Source: Rhizobium album (GTDB lineage Bacteria > Pseudomonadota > Alphaproteobacteria > Rhizobiales > Rhizobiaceae). From it: a DNA stretch of 64,000 nt. Of this stretch, positions 7,779 through 24,719 are shown one piece after another (position 1 is the stretch's first letter; every line of letters begins with the position of its first letter). The stretch lies in assembly GCF_003122325.1 (NCBI RefSeq), contig NZ_QFBC01000001.1, positions 186,001-250,000 on the forward strand. The letters are read 5' to 3'. Under the pieces are notes generated by a model. It saw only the letters and a program-made list of their open reading frames with translations. It made no database searches and was not told the DNA's origin. Position numbers and translations under genes: made by a program.

Positions 7779-8512
7779 TTCGATTTCTTCTTCTTCTCGG
7801 TGCCATGATGGCGCTACCCGGTGTGGCGGAAGCCCAGCAGCTTCCGACAGACCTTTTGAATATTCCGGTGGACGGTTCCGCCGCAGCCTGGATCATCCGC
7901 ACCTTCGGTCTTTTGACCGTGCTGTCAGTTGCGCCCGGCATCCTGATCATGGTCACCAGTTTCCCCCGCTTCGTGATCGCATTTTCTATCCTGCGTTCAG
8001 GCATGGGCCTGGCAACGACGCCTTCCAACATGATTCTCCTCAGCCTGGCGCTGTTCATGACCTTCTATGTCATGTCGCCGACGCTCGATCGCTCATGGAA
8101 CGACGGCGTTCGTCCGCTTCTGGAGAACCGCCTGACCGAGGCGGAGGCCGTCGAGCGCATAGCCGAGCCGTTCCGCACCTTCATGGCTGCCAATACCCGC
8201 GACAAGGACCTGGCGCTGTTCGTCGACATCGCCCGCGAACGCGGACAGGCGGTCGGCACCGGCGACCGCATCGACTACCGGGTCCTCGTTCCCGCCTTCA
8301 TGATTTCCGAGATCCGCCGCGGTTTCGAAATCGGCTTCCTGATCATCCTTCCCTTCCTGGTCATCGACCTGATCGTTGCCACCATCACCATGGCCATGGG
8401 CATGATGATGTTGCCGCCGACATCGATCTCGCTGCCGTTCAAGATCCTTTTCTTCGTCCTGATCGATGGCTGGAACCTGCTCGTAGGGAGCTTGGTTCGC
8501 TCTTTTTCATAA
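7775..8512 (+). CDS. fliP: Flagellar export-gate protein FliP
   Basis: 245 aa, the usual length. It has a cleavable signal (LLLLGAMMALPGVAEAQ) and the FliP signature region (MVTSFPRFVIAFSILRSGMG), with four membrane segments in the remainder. It forms the FliPQR core of the flagellar secretion channel. fliQ and fliR are 17-20 kb away in a second operon, as usual in rhizobia. The last residues run into an AT-rich intergenic region with no obvious terminator, so some transcription may read into flaA. Confidence 0.97.
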   Translation: MIRFLLLLGAMMALPGVAEAQQLPTDLLNIPVDGSAAAWIIRTFGLLTVLSVAPGILIMVTSFPRFVIAFSILRSGMGLATTPSNMILLSLALFMTFYVMSPTLDRSWNDGVRPLLENRLTEAEAVERIAEPFRTFMAANTRDKDLALFVDIARERGQAVGTGDRIDYRVLVPAFMISEIRRGFEIGFLIILPFLVIDLIVATITMAMGMMMLPPTSISLPFKILFFVLIDGWNLLVGSLVRSFS

Positions 8513-8687
8513 TAAAAACAATTATTTGGGAAAAATTAACTATAAATTTTCGATTTTTACCATTTGTTAGCCATAGTCAGAGCCGCCTTTGTCGCGGGCG
8601 CTCAAATTAATTGATTTGAAACGGCTGGCCCCTAGTGTGAACCTCACATGACGGGTTTGGTTTTTGGCCGTAGGGCAGAACCGAGAG
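8513..8687 (+). promoter_or_regulatory. AT-rich promoter region upstream of flaA
   Basis: Between the fliP stop and the conserved leader of flaA is AT-rich sequence (8515-8570) unlike the flanking coding DNA. It contains TTACCATTTGTTAGCC at 8557-8572, which resembles the TTAACC-type repeats before flaC and ftcR, and a GAAACGG word that also occurs before flaB and flaD. These are candidate activator contacts for FtcR/Rem; no promoter boxes could be assigned with certainty. Confidence 0.45.
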
Positions 8688-8775
8688 GCATGAAGCCGAG
8701 CCGCCATCACCGGTAAGTTATAAGTCCGGTATGTCCCTCTCTTTTTTTGTTTTGCGTAACCAAAGGGACAATCCC
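8688..8775 (+). promoter_or_regulatory. Structured flagellin 5' leader of flaA
   Basis: Contains the leader shared by all four flagellin genes: GCATGA at 8688-8693; a hairpin ACCGG (8709-8713) with CCGGT (8726-8730); the block TCCGGTATGTCCC at 8725-8737; and the Shine-Dalgarno AGGGACA at 8764-8770, the exact complement of TGTCCCT at 8732-8738. Forming that second stem would hide the ribosome site. The AUG in the block is in frame with flaA here (15 codons upstream), but not consistently so in the other leaders. Confidence 0.7.
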
Positions 8776-9717
8776 ATGACCAGCATTATCACCAACAACT
8801 CTGCAATGGCCGCTCTGAACACGCTGCGGTCCATCAGCAACAACATGAACGAGACGCAGAGCCGTATTTCTTCGGGTCTCAAGGTTCAGTCGGCAGCCGA
8901 CAACGCAGCCTATTGGTCGATCGCAACGACCATGCGTTCGGACAACAGCGCGCTTTCCGGCGTACAGGACGCCATCGGCTTGGCCTCTGCCAAGACCGAC
9001 ACCGCATACACCGGTCTGCAGGCCGCGATCGACGTCGTTTCTGAAATCAAGACCAAGCTCGTTGCTGCCCGCGAACCGGGTGTCGACAAGGACAAGATCA
9101 ACAAGGAACTGACCGAACTCAAGTCGCAGCTGACGTCGATCTCGCAGTCTTCTTCCTTCAACGGTGAAAACTGGCTCTACAACGACACGACGACTGCAGT
9201 CGGTACCAAGGAAATGGTCGGCTCCTTCGTTCGTGCCACCGACGGCAGCGTATCGATCAAGACCATCGACTTCAACGCCGCAACCTCGGTTCTGATCGAC
9301 ATGAAGACCCAAGGCAACGGCGTTCTGACGAAGGGCGTCTCCAACTCTGTGACCGGTACGGCGACCACCTACTACCTCGTGGCAGCAAGCACGGCCACGG
9401 GTACGCTGGTCTCGCTGACGACCTCCACGAGCGACGATACTGTCGAGGCCATGGTTTCGGCCGTAGACTCGATGCTGAAGACGATGACCGACGTCGCCGC
9501 GACGCTGGGCGCGACCAACAGCCGTCTGGATACCCAGAAGGAATTCGTGAAGGATCTTCGCGACGTGATCACTGCTGGCGTAGGCCGCCTCGTCGACGCA
9601 GATATGAACGAAGAGTCGACCCGACTGAAGGCTTTGCAGACGCAGCAGCAGCTGGGCATCCAGGCTCTGTCGATCGCCAACTCGAACGCCGACAACGTCC
9701 TGTCCCTGTTCCGTTAA
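8776..9717 (+). CDS. flaA: Flagellin (first of four)
   Basis: 313 aa from the ATG at 8776 (MTSIITNN), 5 nt after the GGGACA ribosome site; a longer in-frame reading from 8731 is rejected because the other flagellins also begin MTSI/MASI. N-terminal D0/D1 helices (ISSGLKVQSAADNAAYWSIA) and C-terminal D1/D0 helices (LKALQTQQQLGIQALSIANS) are intact, with a short, Ser/Thr-rich central domain, as in rhizobial flagellins. It is secreted and polymerised into the filament. Its centre is nearly identical in DNA to the third copy. By position it corresponds to flaA. Confidence 0.93.
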   Translation: MTSIITNNSAMAALNTLRSISNNMNETQSRISSGLKVQSAADNAAYWSIATTMRSDNSALSGVQDAIGLASAKTDTAYTGLQAAIDVVSEIKTKLVAAREPGVDKDKINKELTELKSQLTSISQSSSFNGENWLYNDTTTAVGTKEMVGSFVRATDGSVSIKTIDFNAATSVLIDMKTQGNGVLTKGVSNSVTGTATTYYLVAASTATGTLVSLTTSTSDDTVEAMVSAVDSMLKTMTDVAATLGATNSRLDTQKEFVKDLRDVITAGVGRLVDADMNEESTRLKALQTQQQLGIQALSIANSNADNVLSLFR

Positions 9718-9766
9718 TCGGTACACCTGCTTCGTAACGGTCAAAGACGAAGCGTTAAAACAATGT

Positions 9767-9797
9767 AAACCGCGTCTGCAAAGGCGCGGTTTTTTAT
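9767..9797 (+). terminator. Rho-independent terminator after flaA
   Basis: An 11-bp stem with one G-U pair, AAACCGCGTCT (9767-9777) and AGGCGCGGTTT (9782-9792), a GCAA tetraloop, and a following T-tract. It makes flaA a separate transcription unit from flaB. Confidence 0.9.
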
Positions 9798-9919
9798 TTA
9801 CCTTTGTTACTCGATTTTTAAAGTTCGAGCTTCAATGCTTTTAAGTTTTGTTAACCATAATCGTGTTTTCTGCAGCCATAGAAACGGTGAATTAATCACA
9901 ACTCAACTCGCATTAATTG
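9798..9919 (+). promoter_or_regulatory. Promoter region of flaB
   Basis: AT-rich, gene-free. GTTAACCATAAT at 9850-9861, then CCATAGAAACGG further down, align with CTTAACCCTAAT...CCATCGAAACGG before the third flagellin with similar spacing. Exact boxes and transcription start are not assignable by eye. Confidence 0.4.
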
Positions 9920-9991
9920 GCATGACGTCGACCACCGTTCCCGGTACCCAATCCGGAATGTCCCTCAAACCGATCCAAAAGGGGCACTCTA
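9920..9991 (+). promoter_or_regulatory. Structured flagellin 5' leader of flaB
   Basis: GCATGA at 9920-9925; CCGG at 9941-9944 pairing with CCGG at 9953-9956 (8-nt loop); the block TCCGGAATGTCCC at 9952-9964; Shine-Dalgarno AGGGGCA at 9980-9986, which pairs with TGTCCCT at 9959-9965 with one G-U. The block's AUG is out of frame with flaB, so it is not an alternative start of the flagellin. Confidence 0.7.
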
Positions 9992-10936
9992 ATGGCCAGC
10001 ATTATTACGAACACCGCAGCAATCGCAGCTCTCGATACCCTGCGTTCGATCAACAGCAACATGGAAACCACCCAGGGCCGCATCTCGTCCGGTCTGCGTG
10101 TCCAGACCGCATCCGACAACGCGGCCTACTGGTCGATTGCAACCACCATGCGTTCGGACAACAAGGCCCTGAGCGCCGTGCAGGATGCAATCGGCCTCGG
10201 CGCTGCCAAGACCGATACGGCCTATACGGCGATGGAAGCAACCGTCGACGTCGTTTCGGAAATCAAGGCCAAGCTCGTTGCTGCTCGCGAACCGGGTGTT
10301 GACAAGGACAAAATCAACAAGGAACTGACCGAACTCAAGTCGCAACTGCTTTCCATCTCGCAGTCGGCTTCGTTCTCCGGCGAAAACTGGCTCTACAACG
10401 ATACGACGACCGCCATCACCACCAAGGAAATGGTCGGCTCTTTCGTTCGCGCTTCCGATGGTAGCGTATCGATCAAGACCATCGACTTCAATGCCGGCTC
10501 CTATGTCCTGATTGACATGAAAACGCAGGCGAACGGCCTCCTCACAAAGGGCGTCGCGAACAACATCAGCGGTACGACAACCACCTATTATCTCGTGGCG
10601 GCAAGCACGGCCACCGGTACGCTGATCTCGCTGACGACTTCGACGAGCGACGATACTGTCGAAGCGATGATCTCGGCCGTTGACACGATCCTGAAGTCGA
10701 TGACCGATGCCGCTGCGACACTGGGCGCCACCAAGACGCGCATCGAAATGCAGGAGGAATTTGTTAAAGACCTGATGGATACGATCGACAAGGGTGTCGG
10801 CCGCCTGGTGGACGCAGACATGAATGCGGAATCCACTCGGCTGAAGGCACTGCAGACTCAGCAACAGCTGGGCATTCAGGCATTGTCGATCGCCAACAGC
10901 AATTCCGAAAACATCTTGCAGCTCTTCCGCCAGTAA
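9992..10936 (+). CDS. flaB: Flagellin (second of four)
   Basis: 314 aa, beginning MASIITNT, with the ATG 5 nt after GGGGCA. Complete D0/D1 flagellin ends (ISSGLRVQTASDNAAYWSIA; LKALQTQQQLGIQALSIANS). The protein is close to its neighbours but its synonymous positions differ more from the first and third copies than those do from each other. It ends in LQLFRQ and is followed by its own terminator. Filament subunit; named by position. Confidence 0.92.
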   Translation: MASIITNTAAIAALDTLRSINSNMETTQGRISSGLRVQTASDNAAYWSIATTMRSDNKALSAVQDAIGLGAAKTDTAYTAMEATVDVVSEIKAKLVAAREPGVDKDKINKELTELKSQLLSISQSASFSGENWLYNDTTTAITTKEMVGSFVRASDGSVSIKTIDFNAGSYVLIDMKTQANGLLTKGVANNISGTTTTYYLVAASTATGTLISLTTSTSDDTVEAMISAVDTILKSMTDAAATLGATKTRIEMQEEFVKDLMDTIDKGVGRLVDADMNAESTRLKALQTQQQLGIQALSIANSNSENILQLFRQ

Positions 10937-10987
10937 GTGCTGCCAGCGTGACAACCGCGCCTCTTTAGACGGCGCGCCTGACATCCG

Positions 10988-11018
10988 AAACCCGCCGATC
11001 ACATTCGGCGGGTTTTTT
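10988..11018 (+). terminator. Rho-independent terminator after flaB
   Basis: Perfect 11-bp stem AAACCCGCCGA (10988-10998) and TCGGCGGGTTT (11005-11015) with a 6-nt loop and a short T-run. Confidence 0.9.
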
Positions 11019-11228
11019 CTGTTCGGCAATCGCAACTGGTATGGCGCAAGCAGTGGGCGCCATTTTAACGAAATTTAAGTAATGATTAACATTTAATTAT
11101 ATTAATGAAATAATAACTAAATTTATTCACAAAAAGATTTCGAATTTAAGGTTCCTTAACCCTAATGATTTCTAATACAACCATCGAAACGGCGAGCTAA
11201 GTCAAATAGAGTTTTCGAGTATTAGCTT
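11019..11228 (+). promoter_or_regulatory. Very AT-rich promoter region of the third flagellin
   Basis: The flaB-to-third-flagellin gap is 371 nt with no gene. 11067-11160 is among the most AT-rich DNA of the window, with runs of TTAA and TAATTA words, as expected of an UP-element or a regulator-binding region. TTAACC at 11157-11162 and CGAAACGG further on match the flaB upstream region. Confidence 0.45.
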
Positions 11229-11307
11229 GCATGATGCGTTGCCGTTTTGCCGGTATAAAGAGTCCGGCATGTCCCTTCCATTTATATAGTCCAAAAGGGG
11301 CAGTATC
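11229..11307 (+). promoter_or_regulatory. Structured flagellin 5' leader of the third flagellin
   Basis: GCATGA at 11229-11234; perfect 6-bp hairpin TGCCGG (11248-11253) with CCGGCA (11264-11269); block TCCGGCATGTCCC at 11263-11275; Shine-Dalgarno AAGGGGCA at 11295-11302 pairing with TGTCCCTT at 11270-11277 (8 bp, one G-U). The AUG in the block opens only six codons before a TAG, so it encodes nothing conserved. Confidence 0.72.
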
Positions 11308-12249
11308 ATGACGAGTATCATTACCAACAATGCAGCAATGGCAGCTCTCAACACGCTGCGTTCGATCAACAGCAGCATGGAGACCACTCAGAGCCGTATC
11401 TCTTCCGGTCTGCGCGTTCAGTCTGCAGCTGACAACGCAGCCTACTGGTCGATCGCAACGACCATGCGTTCGGACAACAAGGCCCTTGGCGCTGTCGAAG
11501 ATGCGATCGGCCTCGGCGCTGCCAAGACCGACACTGCCTACAACGGTCTCGAAGCTGCGATCGACGTCGTTTCTGAAATCAAGAAGAAGCTCGTTGCCGC
11601 TCGCGAACCGGGTGTCGACAAGGACAAGATCAACAAGGAACTGACCGAACTCAAGTCGCAGCTGTCGTCTATCGCCCAGTCTTCTTCCTTCAACGGTGAA
11701 AACTGGCTCTACAACGACACGACGACTGCAGTCGGTACCAAGGAAATGGTCGGCTCCTTCGTTCGTGCCACAGACGGCAGCGTATCGATCAAGACCATCG
11801 ACTTCAACGCCGCCACGTCCGTTCTGATCGACATGAAGACCCAGGCGAACGGCATTCTGACGAAGGGCGTCTCCAACTCTGTTACCGGTACGGCAACCAC
11901 CTACTACCTCGTGGCAGCAAGCACGGCCACGGGTACGCTGGTCTCGCTGACGACTTCCACGAGCGACGACACTGTCGAGGCCATGGTTTCGGCTGTAGAC
12001 GTGATGCTGAAGACGATGACCGACGTTGCTGCAACGATCGGTGCGACCAACAGCCGCCTTGAACTGCAGAAGGAATTCGTTGCCGACCTCACGGACGTGA
12101 TCGACACCGGCATTGGCCGCCTCGTCGACGCTGACATGAACGAAGAGTCGACCCGACTGAAGGCTTTGCAGACGCAGCAGCAACTGGGCATCCAGGCTCT
12201 GTCGATCGCCAACTCGAACGCCGACAACATCCTCTCGCTCTTCCGTTAA
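11308..12249 (+). CDS. flaD: Flagellin (third of four)
   Basis: 313 aa, MTSIITNN start, ATG 5 nt after GGGGCA. D0/D1 ends complete. The middle of the gene is almost the same DNA as the first flagellin, including a 95-bp identical run (11677-11771 against 9145-9239), which suggests recent duplication or gene conversion. The symbol flaD follows the S. meliloti order flaA-flaB-flaD-flaC; in Rhizobium naming it would be flaC. Confidence 0.9.
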   Translation: MTSIITNNAAMAALNTLRSINSSMETTQSRISSGLRVQSAADNAAYWSIATTMRSDNKALGAVEDAIGLGAAKTDTAYNGLEAAIDVVSEIKKKLVAAREPGVDKDKINKELTELKSQLSSIAQSSSFNGENWLYNDTTTAVGTKEMVGSFVRATDGSVSIKTIDFNAATSVLIDMKTQANGILTKGVSNSVTGTATTYYLVAASTATGTLVSLTTSTSDDTVEAMVSAVDVMLKTMTDVAATIGATNSRLELQKEFVADLTDVIDTGIGRLVDADMNEESTRLKALQTQQQLGIQALSIANSNADNILSLFR

Positions 12250-12305
12250 TCGGAAGCGATTGGCCAAAGCCGGACTTTCGGTTCGGCTTCGGATGTTCGA
12301 AAACG

Positions 12306-12337
12306 AAAAACCGCCTCTCCGCGAGGCGGTTTTTTTG
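12306..12337 (+). terminator. Rho-independent terminator after the third flagellin
   Basis: AAAAACCGCCTC (12306-12317) pairs with GAGGCGGTTTTT (12323-12334) around a 5-nt loop, with a run of T. Confidence 0.92.
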
Positions 12338-12489
12338 TTTTGTCGCAACGTCTTGCAAGGTGCGCCGTTAAGGTTTTGTTCAGGAAACCTAACAACTTCT
12401 TTATTGCGTTAACCATTTGTTAACCATATGGTCTTAACCATTCGTTAACAGCGTCGGGTCGATCATCAGGGCAAACACGTGATCGGCAA
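12338..12489 (+). promoter_or_regulatory. Promoter region of the fourth flagellin with TTAACC repeats
   Basis: GTTAACCATTTGTTAACC at 12408-12425 and TTAACCATTCGTTAAC at 12434-12449 are two closely spaced, near-identical, partly palindromic sites with 5-nt spacers between GTTAAC/TTAACC halves. A related palindrome lies before ftcR (19043-19060). They are plausible binding sites for a dimeric activator; the protein is not shown by the sequence. Confidence 0.5.
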
Positions 12490-12563
12490 GCATGAAGCAG
12501 CCCGTCGTTACCGGTGTTTTCGTGCAATCCGGTATGTCCCGCAATCTCCTTGGGGCAAGACAT
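12490..12563 (+). promoter_or_regulatory. Structured flagellin 5' leader of the fourth flagellin
   Basis: GCATGA at 12490-12495; perfect 6-bp hairpin TACCGG (12509-12514) with CCGGTA (12529-12534); block TCCGGTATGTCCC at 12528-12540; Shine-Dalgarno GGGGCA at 12552-12557 pairing with TGTCCC at 12535-12540, extendable by a G-U. The loop is only 9-10 nt, shortest of the four. Confidence 0.7.
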
Positions 12564-13523
12564 ATGACCAGCATTTTGACCAACACCGCCGCCATGGCGG
12601 CTCTCCAGACTCTCCGCGGCATCAACAACAACATGGAAGAAACCCAGAACCGGATTTCTTCCGGCTACCGGGTGCAGACGGCTGCCGACAACGCCGCCTA
12701 TTGGTCCATCGCAACCACGATGCGCTCCGACAATGGCGCTCTGTCCACCGTTCAGGACGCTCTCGGCCTTGGCGCCGCAAAGACGGACGTTTCCTATACC
12801 GGCCTGGAATCGGCCGTCGATGTCGTGACCGAAATCAAGAAGAAGCTCGTTGCGGCTCGCGAACCGGGCGTCGATCGAACGAAAATCGACAAGGAACTGA
12901 CCGAGCTCAAGAACCAGATTCAATCGATTGCCGAATCGGCATCGTTCTCCGGCGAAAACTGGCTTTATAACGAATCGACCGCCGCGCCGGCGACGAAAGA
13001 AATCGTCGCGTCCTTCAATCGTTCCGCCGACGGCTCGGTTTCCATCACCACTCTGGCTTACGACACGGCGACATCGGTTCTCATCGATACCAGCGATGCG
13101 AGCCGCGGTATTCTGAGTAAGGGTTATCCGATCGCTCAGCCGAGCGGCACCACCACGACCACCGTCACGTATTATCTCATCAATCCGGGCACGCCAGCGG
13201 CCAGCGCCACGGAAGTGAAGCTGACGTCGACGACGAGCGACGACCAGATCGACGGCATGATGCTTGCCGTGGAAGCCATGCTGGCACGCCTGACCGATTC
13301 GGCCTCGACGCTCGGCGCGATCACCAAGCGTGTCGACATGCAGGAAGATTTTGTCGCCACGCTGATGGACGTGATCGAAAAGGGCGTCGGACGTCTGGTC
13401 GATGCGGATATGAACGAAGAGTCGACAAAGCTGAAGGCGCTGCAGACGCAGCAGCAGCTCGGCATCCAGTCGCTGTCGATCGCCAATACCAATGCGGAGA
13501 ATATTCTCCAGCTCTTCAAGTAA
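12564..13523 (+). CDS. flaC: Flagellin (fourth of four, divergent)
   Basis: 319 aa from the ATG at 12564 (MTSILTNT), 6 nt after GGGGCA; the earlier in-frame ATGs at 12492 and 12534 lie inside the leader and are not used by the other flagellins. D0/D1 ends are complete (ISSGYRVQTAADNAAYWSIA; LKALQTQQQLGIQSLSIANT). The central domain (residues about 165-225) differs most from the others and has a short insertion around SGTTTTTVTYYLINPGTP. Filament subunit, probably minor or functionally distinct. Confidence 0.91.
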   Translation: MTSILTNTAAMAALQTLRGINNNMEETQNRISSGYRVQTAADNAAYWSIATTMRSDNGALSTVQDALGLGAAKTDVSYTGLESAVDVVTEIKKKLVAAREPGVDRTKIDKELTELKNQIQSIAESASFSGENWLYNESTAAPATKEIVASFNRSADGSVSITTLAYDTATSVLIDTSDASRGILSKGYPIAQPSGTTTTTVTYYLINPGTPAASATEVKLTSTTSDDQIDGMMLAVEAMLARLTDSASTLGAITKRVDMQEDFVATLMDVIEKGVGRLVDADMNEESTKLKALQTQQQLGIQSLSIANTNAENILQLFK

Positions 13524-23925: not shown

Positions 23926-24273
23926 ATGTACCAGTTTTCATATGCCGAGATCATGGAAGACGGCGTCGCGGACGCAAAGGATCGCGAACGACAGGTACTC
24001 AATCGCTCTATTGAACTGCTTTCTGCTGCGCGTGATCGGGGCGGCTATAATCGCGAGGCGATCGACGCCTTGTTCTATACGCGCCGAATCTGGATTCGCT
24101 TTATTGAGGATTTGAAACAGCCGGAAAATCAGCTCGACACCGAATTGCGGGCCAATCTCATCTCGATCGCTATCTGGATCTTGAAGGAGTGCGACCGGAT
24201 CAGAAAACGGCAGTCGGAAAATTTTCAGGGCATTATCGACGTAACCACCATCATCAGGGATGGACTTAAATGA
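23926..24273 (+). CDS. flaF: Flagellin synthesis regulator FlaF
   Basis: 115 aa. Matches FlaF: a short helical protein starting MYQFSYAEI, with [20 protein letters not shown] and [20 protein letters not shown]. In Caulobacter and Brucella FlaF promotes flagellin production or secretion and opposes FlbT. GAAGGATG precedes the start. Its stop overlaps the flbT start (ATGA at 24270). Its likely targets are the four flagellin mRNAs or proteins encoded at 8.8-13.5 kb. Confidence 0.93.
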
Positions 24274-24719
24274 AAAGTACCCTACGCATATCGCTTAAAT
24301 CCGGCGAAAGAATTTTTATAAATGGAGCGGTGCTGCGTGTTGACCGCAAGGTCGCCCTGGAATTCTTGAATGATGTGACGTTCCTCCTGGAAAACCACGT
24401 TCTCCAGCCGGAAGATGCGACGACGCCGCTGCGGCAGCTGTATTTTATCGCCCAGATGATGCTGATCAATCCGGACGGCGCAGAGCAGTCCATGGCGATG
24501 TTCCGCAAGTCCGTCGCCATGCTGTTGAATTGCTTCAAGGACGACGAAATTCTCGCCGAACTGAAGCGGATCGACGGAATGGTGACGTCCGGCCGCGCCT
24601 TCGACGCGCTGAAGGCCATTCGCGGGCTTTACGTTGCCGAGGATCGTATCCTCAACAACCAGGAACTCACTCCAGCCACCATCGAACAGATTCGCAGGGA
24701 GATTGCCCCATGGCGGTAA
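24270..24719 (+). CDS. flbT: Flagellin mRNA regulator FlbT
   Basis: 149 aa, typical FlbT ([60 protein letters not shown]). In Caulobacter FlbT binds the 5' untranslated region of flagellin mRNA and destabilises it until the hook is complete; in Brucella it is an activator. The structured leaders described before each flagellin here are therefore natural candidate targets. Overlaps flaF and, by 10 nt, flgD. Confidence 0.94.

Follow-up and report, generated by a model that had tools for sequence, protein, structure and literature searches.

In Caulobacter and Brucella, the protein FlbT acts on the 5' untranslated regions of flagellin mRNAs (PMC4347634, PMC3930126). Together with the flagellin FljJ, Caulobacter FlbT represses translation until that flagellin is secreted (PMC7591256), and FlbT binding promotes degradation of the mRNA (PMC4347634); FlaF is a secretion chaperone in the same organism (PMC7591256). 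A motility screen in Agrobacterium fabrum identified both flbT and flaF (PMC9812332). What does FlbT recognize? A 2015 review leaves its target site blank and its mechanism unresolved (PMC4347634). Here we describe a structured leader that precedes each of four tandem flagellin genes in a 64,000-nucleotide stretch of Rhizobium album DNA, the window (G000:C1:186001-250000 of a 6.86 Mb genome).

To judge from their descriptions, the FlbT-controlled leaders of Caulobacter fljK and Brucella fliC are the closest known counterparts: these too are alphaproteobacterial flagellin mRNA leaders, with FlbT, FlaF and assembly-coupled translation. The present leader shares with them its place directly upstream of flagellin (four of four in the window, 67 of 73 places elsewhere) and the presence of flbT in the genome. 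In the accessible portions of the literature searched, no conserved structure of this form is described for FlbT-controlled flagellin leaders, and full-text searches turned up no described rhizobial flagellin leader.

Three further systems bear comparison. CsrA-FliW-flagellin of Bacillus and Campylobacter also couples translation of flagellin mRNA to flagellin export (PMC4894983), but through a different protein; PDB searches with FlbT gave no CsrA chain. The leaders of Corbino et al. (2005) are likewise structured RNAs found by comparison in Agrobacterium and other alphaproteobacteria, but they belong to serC, speF, suhB, ybhL and metA alone, and flagell- and motility are absent from the text. 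Finally, flg-Rhizobiales (RF01736) is a structured RNA that is also associated with flagellar genes in this order. It has three hairpins, TTGGGAG-type loops and TTGGCACG boxes and lies upstream of a FlgE/F/G-family gene, whereas our leader lies upstream of flagellins and chemoreceptors. We reject RF01736 as the identity of the leader: its model has no match in the R. album genome at E ≤ 0.001 and none within 8500-12700 of the window at E ≤ 10. The same model does match other genomes of the order, 18 of 150 at E ≤ 0.001 against three over the cut-off, by which the Rfam model looks narrow. These loci (L074-L086) lie next to the TTGGCACG boxes; the gene that follows belongs to the FlgE/F/G family by domain at L077 and has a similar start, judged by eye, at the others, where it looks like flgF. 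No Rfam 15 family scores over its gathering threshold anywhere in the window.

From comparison of sequences we conclude that the structured RNA leader is real, that it is found order-wide and that it has no Rfam match. It probably helps to set the timing of flagellin production.

Structure and covariation of the leader

The original prediction, made from the letters of the window, gave all four flagellin mRNAs a conserved structured leader in which a CCGG hairpin is followed by a TGTCCC block able to pair with the Shine-Dalgarno sequence. The full pattern indeed occurs four times in the window (8688-8737, 9920-9964, 11229-11275 and 12490-12540), once ahead of each flagellin, and never in 100 dinucleotide shuffles. 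Each match is followed by a GGGACA or GGGGCA Shine-Dalgarno (at 8765, 9981, 11297 and 12552) and a start codon (at 8776, 9992, 11308 and 12564), so that the pattern and all its coordinates stand. Within the window 'all four' is correct; outside it the genome has two other flagellin-like genes, at G000:C1:612240 (L168) and G000:C4:200329 (L169), and these lack the leader. The short block TCCGGNATGTCCC, allowing up to two mismatches, is not enriched in the window (9 against 7.6 by chance). The pattern CCGGNATGTCCC occurs 13 times in the genome and its reversal twice.

We collected 213 flagellin starts from 73 loci and the window, 210 of them with 140 bases upstream, leaving 145 after removal of near-duplicates. 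A structure-blind MAFFT alignment of these 145 leaders, folded with RNAalifold, gives five helices. P1 is a long-range helix of 7-8 base pairs, and P1a is nested inside it; together they enclose a 3-base-pair hairpin with an AUGAN loop. The CCGG hairpin (P2) and the pairing of TGTCCC with the Shine-Dalgarno (P3) follow on the 3' side. The original prediction described P2 and P3 but not P1, P1a or the CATGA hairpin, and so understated the size of the element. The unpaired AUGA is 98-100% conserved (122 sequences).

Covariation was measured in two alignments. A1 holds 75 leaders from 80 references drawn, with the structure predicted from the same alignment and five odd-looking rows left out (L022:6570, L033:1658, L033:4643, L015:247 and L068:2877). 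A2 holds 143 order-wide matches aligned to the covariance model, and so leaning toward it, from 80 hand-chosen sources; 122 remain after near-duplicate removal. The phylogenetic null was home-made rather than R-scape: a FastTree tree, Fitch ancestors, substitutions re-dealt along branches and a G statistic with APC correction, in 60 simulated alignments. Both sides change at 14 of the 23 pairs of A1, and its covariation score is 0.379; shuffled columns give 0.206, and slid structures no more than 0.116. The top four of 7381 column pairs are all P1 or P1a pairs (expected numbers 0.017, 0.2, 0.37 and 1.0), and six of 23 pairs reach E < 0.05 within the structure. Order-wide, in A2, P1 and P1a supply all of the eight highest-scoring column pairs, five of them unreached in any simulation, and 13 of 23 pairs pass. 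Among the smaller helices, two of three pairs of the AUGA stem and three of four P2 pairs show both-sided change in A2, the latter by rare swaps such as GCTGC/GCAGC for GCCGG/CCGGC in L136. Strong conservation across Rhizobium- and Sinorhizobium-type flagellins and clear covariation in P1/P1a by this null bear out the claim of a conserved structured mRNA leader. One detail fared less well. The variable base of the block was said to covary with the base preceding the first CCGG; this pair ranks ninth of 6903 column pairs order-wide (0.88 expected at that score by the null) but is a standard pair in only 47 of the 75 A1 leaders.

Are these blocks RNA, or could they be DNA sites, either parts of a class III promoter or a palindromic operator near the transcription start? 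GGCATGANGCC is palindromic, conserved TTAACC boxes of CtrA type lie just upstream, 5' of P1, and CtrA binds flaA promoters in Sinorhizobium meliloti (PMC4433202, PMC3616915), where CtrA motifs occur at flaA, flaC, flaD, mcpE and mcpY. An operator, however, would not be expected to change its sequence while keeping its pairing across loops of widely differing length, as P1 and P1a do, and the element ends at the Shine-Dalgarno. The base pairs themselves also speak to the question. G-U pairs outnumber A-C combinations 154 to 29 in A1 (5.3) against 1.9 when the 3' letters are shuffled, and 193 to 37 in reduced A2 against 1.8. In P1 and P1a alone the counts are 84 to 24 in A1 (3.5 against 1.5) and 100 to 32 in A2 (shuffles 1.3). 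None of 500 shuffles was as high, although RNAalifold and the covariance model both favour G-U pairs and part of the excess may reflect choice of register. Because a DNA palindrome should track composition and these ratios exceed it (3.5 to 5.3 against 1.5 to 1.9), the RNA nature of the element is well supported by its sequence, and we regard a DNA site as improbable.

All features in the window lie on the + strand. Flagellin 2 has a minimum-energy fold identical to the consensus: P1 (AACGGTG/CACCGTT, 9883-9889/9933-9939) and P1a (AATTAAT/ATTAATT, 9890-9896/9912-9918) span 9883-9939, with the AUGA hairpin at 9919-9929, where the loop is also conserved, and P2, clear from the sequence as well, at 9941-9956. 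Agreement is partial for flagellins 1, 3 and 4. In flagellin 1, P1 encloses P1a within 8648-8707, its arms (8648-8654/8701-8707) having one A.C mismatch and falling on covarying A1 columns 13-19/82-90. Loop conservation and both-sided change at two of three stem pairs identify its hairpin, GGC-AUGAA-GCC, at 8687-8697; sequence and A2 pair counts place P2 at 8710-8729 (arms 8710-8713/8726-8729). Comparison gives flagellin 3 a P1 (AAACGGC/GCCGTTT, 11187-11193/11241-11247) and P1a (AGCTAA/TTAGCT, 11195-11200/11222-11227) within 11187-11247, the free minimum-energy fold having P1a alone; its hairpin lies at 11228-11238 by loop conservation and P2 at 11250-11267 by sequence and fold. In flagellin 4, again by comparison, P1 (12450-12458/12501-12509, one mismatch) and P1a (TCGATCA/TGATCGG, 12459-12465/12480-12486) fill 12450-12509; the hairpin at 12489-12499, with an A.A outer pair, has the conserved loop, and the sequence puts P2 at 12511-12532.

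The genes themselves occupy 8776-9717, 9992-10936, 11308-12249 (with Flagellin_N and Flagellin_C domains) and 12564-13523, the other three taken from their reading frames; the nearest named flagellins are from Rhizobiaceae, for example Ciceribacter. Since terminator-like GC hairpins with T runs, seen by eye, follow genes 1-3 (9770-9796, 10990-11019 and 12310-12336), each of these genes probably has its own transcript. As the four are tandem paralogues, their spacers might be alike merely through recent duplication and have no function. Yet the paralogous leaders of a genome have diverged in P1, P1a and loops while keeping their pairing, and the leader also occurs in other families and ahead of genes that are not homologous. 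Covariation rules out simple paralogue similarity, and we find the idea barely credible.

Distribution and the chemoreceptor version of the core

Covariance-model matches occur in at least 66 of 297 genomes of the order and at least 233 of 297 genomes of the family, lower bounds in that 12 candidates were scored per genome. From the named loci the order appears to be the rhizobial one (Hyphomicrobiales). A class-wide search of 289 genomes found, beyond R. album itself, one marginal match, inside coding sequence by eye. Among the matches listed in the order, 73 places were read: 67 precede a flagellin, five a chemoreceptor and one is ambiguous. The flagellins were recognized by eye from their N-termini, at 28 of 28 readable loci of L098-L126 (L101 runs into a contig end, and some of the 28 are near-identical) and at 39 of 45 further places. 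The six others are two protoglobin-chemoreceptor genes (L127, L128), three chemoreceptor-type genes and one gene without a Pfam family (L156, third place). The three chemoreceptor-type genes carry MCPsignal (L143, L145) or HAMP (L142, truncated where the stretch ends); L142 and L143 come from genomes G114 and G148, L145 from G262.

The leader is specific in what it precedes. It is absent at flagellins of another system (MPVI-TN type, L182-L184) within leader-type genomes. Because Flagellin_N occurs in 223 of the 297 genomes of the order and a leader match in 66, the model finds no leader at many of the order's flagellins. Direct search of 19 further flagellin or hook-filament stretches gave E < 0.001 at nine, though the genome search had missed them.

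Within the R. album genome, model R1 finds the four flagellin leaders at E of 1e-14 to 1e-16, a fifth place at 4e-4 and six more at 0.1-1. The core model R2, built from 92 of 101 references (A4) with three base pairs drawn from that alignment and so acting as a sequence profile, gives exactly five places at E < 1e-5, four flagellins and one chemoreceptor gene, the next being at 0.30. In A4 the 3' arm of the chemoreceptor P1 is out of register by one base, and its pair counts carry no weight here. The fifth place, G000:C1:166427-166539, lies 20 kb ahead of the window, before a gene for a protein with Protoglobin and MCPsignal domains, which we take to be the gene that usually opens the chemotaxis operon of rhizobia.

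Matches were found in 44 of 121 genomes. We scanned the gene itself and 25 relatives of at least 48% identity, from 30 loci (L214-L217 were left out; L205, L206 and L207 look unlike the rest by eye). A P1-P2 core lies upstream on the same strand at all 26 (E up to 0.003; L188-L213), with CATGA 140-287 nucleotides before the protein match. The series CATGA-G-CCGG-CCGG-A is present at 25 of the 26 and a TTAACCATA box just 5' of it at 22. TGTCCC is absent at all 26. The core is thus modular, and TGTCCC has been added to it in flagellin leaders and a few others.

The Shine-Dalgarno stem

P3 pairs TGTCCC with GGGACA in flagellin 1 (8732-8737/8765-8770, within 8732-8770) and with GGGGCA in flagellins 2 (9959-9964/9981-9986, within 9959-9986), 3 (11270-11275/11297-11302, within 11270-11302) and 4 (12535-12540/12552-12557, within 12535-12557). 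Its free-folding probability is about 0.99 for flagellins 2 and 3 (pair probabilities 0.76-1.0 and 0.8-0.99), about 0.5 for flagellin 1 and just 0.15 for flagellin 4. The stem is nearly always possible, 98.7% of cells being paired in A2. The Shine-Dalgarno is of an unusual GGGRCR type in 177 of 211 leaders, as against two of 22 other window genes, whose starts come from the open-reading-frame list of the window. AGGAG or GGAGG occurs in none of the 211 and in two of the 22; AGGA, GGAG or GAGG in 34 and 12. The Shine-Dalgarno region can form at least seven contiguous pairs with the 48 nucleotides upstream in 151 of 211 leaders (32% in shuffles), and in 41 of 75 of the order-wide set (19% in shuffles).

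Seven genomes labelled g41 were read. Two of them (L134, L135) carry a compensatory swap in P3, TGTTCCT/AGGAACA for TGTCCC/GGGACA. In the other five (L129-L133), P1 to P2 are kept, TGTCCC is lost and the Shine-Dalgarno is of AAGGTA type.

The original prediction had read P3 as sequestration of the ribosome site. Its pairing potential and the GGGRCR sequences agree with this; the lack of significant covariation in P3, the loss of TGTCCC in five of the g41 genomes and the mixed free folding leave it less secure. Because the core precedes chemoreceptor genes without the block, and the strongest structural signal lies outside it, sequestration cannot account for everything the leader does. Control of translation through the Shine-Dalgarno is nevertheless plausible.

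The A between P2 and P3 (the A of NATG) is 98% conserved. Could the ATG of TCCGGNATGTCCC, or that of GCATGA, open a leader peptide? In flagellin 1 the frame from 8731 does enter the gene in phase, but the upstream frame of flagellin 2 differs from its gene frame, and CTG replaces ATG in several leaders (L010:4265, L027:458, L030:1636 and L035:2893). On these two grounds we reject an upstream frame, which is highly improbable.

The most serious alternative accepts the RNA and changes its role. The leader may act mainly in mRNA stability or processing, or as the target of another factor (a small RNA with Hfq, or another RNA-binding protein), with Shine-Dalgarno pairing secondary and FlbT not the reader. 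The promoter-like boxes are spaced such that transcription would start near P1, making it a 5'-terminal stem; chemoreceptor genes retain the core in the absence of TGTCCC, the five g41 genomes have lost the block, and Caulobacter FlbT itself promotes mRNA degradation (PMC4347634). A protective stem, however, has no need of a near-invariant AUGA loop, and the Shine-Dalgarno complements TGTCCC across nearly the whole order. We think this role possible but rather unlikely.

FlbT and the favoured reading

The window also encodes the candidate partners flaF (23926-24273; PF07309, E 2.8e-34) and flbT (24270-24719; PF07378, E 2.3e-42), the latter the candidate RNA-binding protein. An flbT gene is present in 65 of the 66 leader-bearing genomes, the exception being 86% complete, against 210 of 297 overall. 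It lies within 36 kb of a leader in 25 of the 42 leader-bearing genomes with a listed flbT place; of the remaining 17, 16 carry a second flbT at an unlisted place. Of 40 flbT stretches searched by tblastn with the window FlbT (E < 1e-5), 19 match and 21 do not. All 15 FlbTs near a leader are alike, at 45-89% identity to the window protein and by eye one subfamily; the four other matches, away from the leader, have 26-31%. FlbT seems to be split into two subfamilies (window 24270-24719, L237-L276), the distant one found solely at places away from the leader. The predicted helical half of FlbT is no closer to FliS than to other helical bundles. FlbT as reader of the leader is a reasoned guess.

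We favour, with a probability of roughly 0.6, the reading that this is a cis-acting leader of late motility mRNAs, serving export-coupled translational control with FlbT as the likely partner. The spacing of the TTAACC-type boxes suggests a transcription start for flagellins 2-4 at the 5' arm of P1 or close to it. P1, P1a, the AUGA hairpin and P2 would form a platform for a trans-acting factor, the likeliest being the FlbT encoded in the same flagellar cluster, and P3, which would cover the Shine-Dalgarno on flagellin mRNAs, would be the expression platform. Until the hook-basal body is complete, this factor would act with P3 to keep flagellin translation low; once export opens, the ribosome site would be freed, as when the FlbT-bound flagellin co-repressor of Caulobacter is secreted. 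On chemoreceptor mRNAs, some of which lack P3, the same factor may use the same platform to a different outcome, for example stability.

Several observations weigh against this reading. Free folding prefers other structures for flagellins 1, 3 (at P1) and 4, and folding z-scores of the window leaders run from -0.85 to -3.07. When all 7381 column pairs of A1 are counted, the best pair is the sole one below E = 0.05. P3 shows no significant covariation in A1 or A2, with both-sided change at two of five pairs (A2), and chemoreceptor genes are preceded by a core that lacks it. Runs of at least seven contiguous pairs with the Shine-Dalgarno region are also possible at nine of 22 control genes (20% in shuffles), a property enriched in leaders and not exclusive to them. 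An flbT gene is present in 145 of 231 genomes without a leader match, and its link to the leader may be common descent of one gene cluster, not contact. FlbT, moreover, is a repressor in Caulobacter and a reported activator in Brucella (PMC4347634).

A leader with a defined structure, an invariant loop and a separable Shine-Dalgarno stem is a concrete target for FlbT recognition. It bears on which nucleotides FlbT reads, on why FlbT is a repressor in one genus but an activator in another, and on whether chemoreceptors share in the checkpoint. For the annotation of plant-associated bacteria, it provides a new RNA family. Tentatively, and with less than even confidence, we go further: the leader may represent an unnamed RNA family whose protein-reading core, a three-way junction with an invariant AUGA loop, is joined to exchangeable outputs and read by one flagellin-sensing FlbT subfamily. 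If so, closure of the Shine-Dalgarno on flagellin mRNAs and another output on chemoreceptor mRNAs would place filament and chemotaxis proteins under a single export checkpoint.

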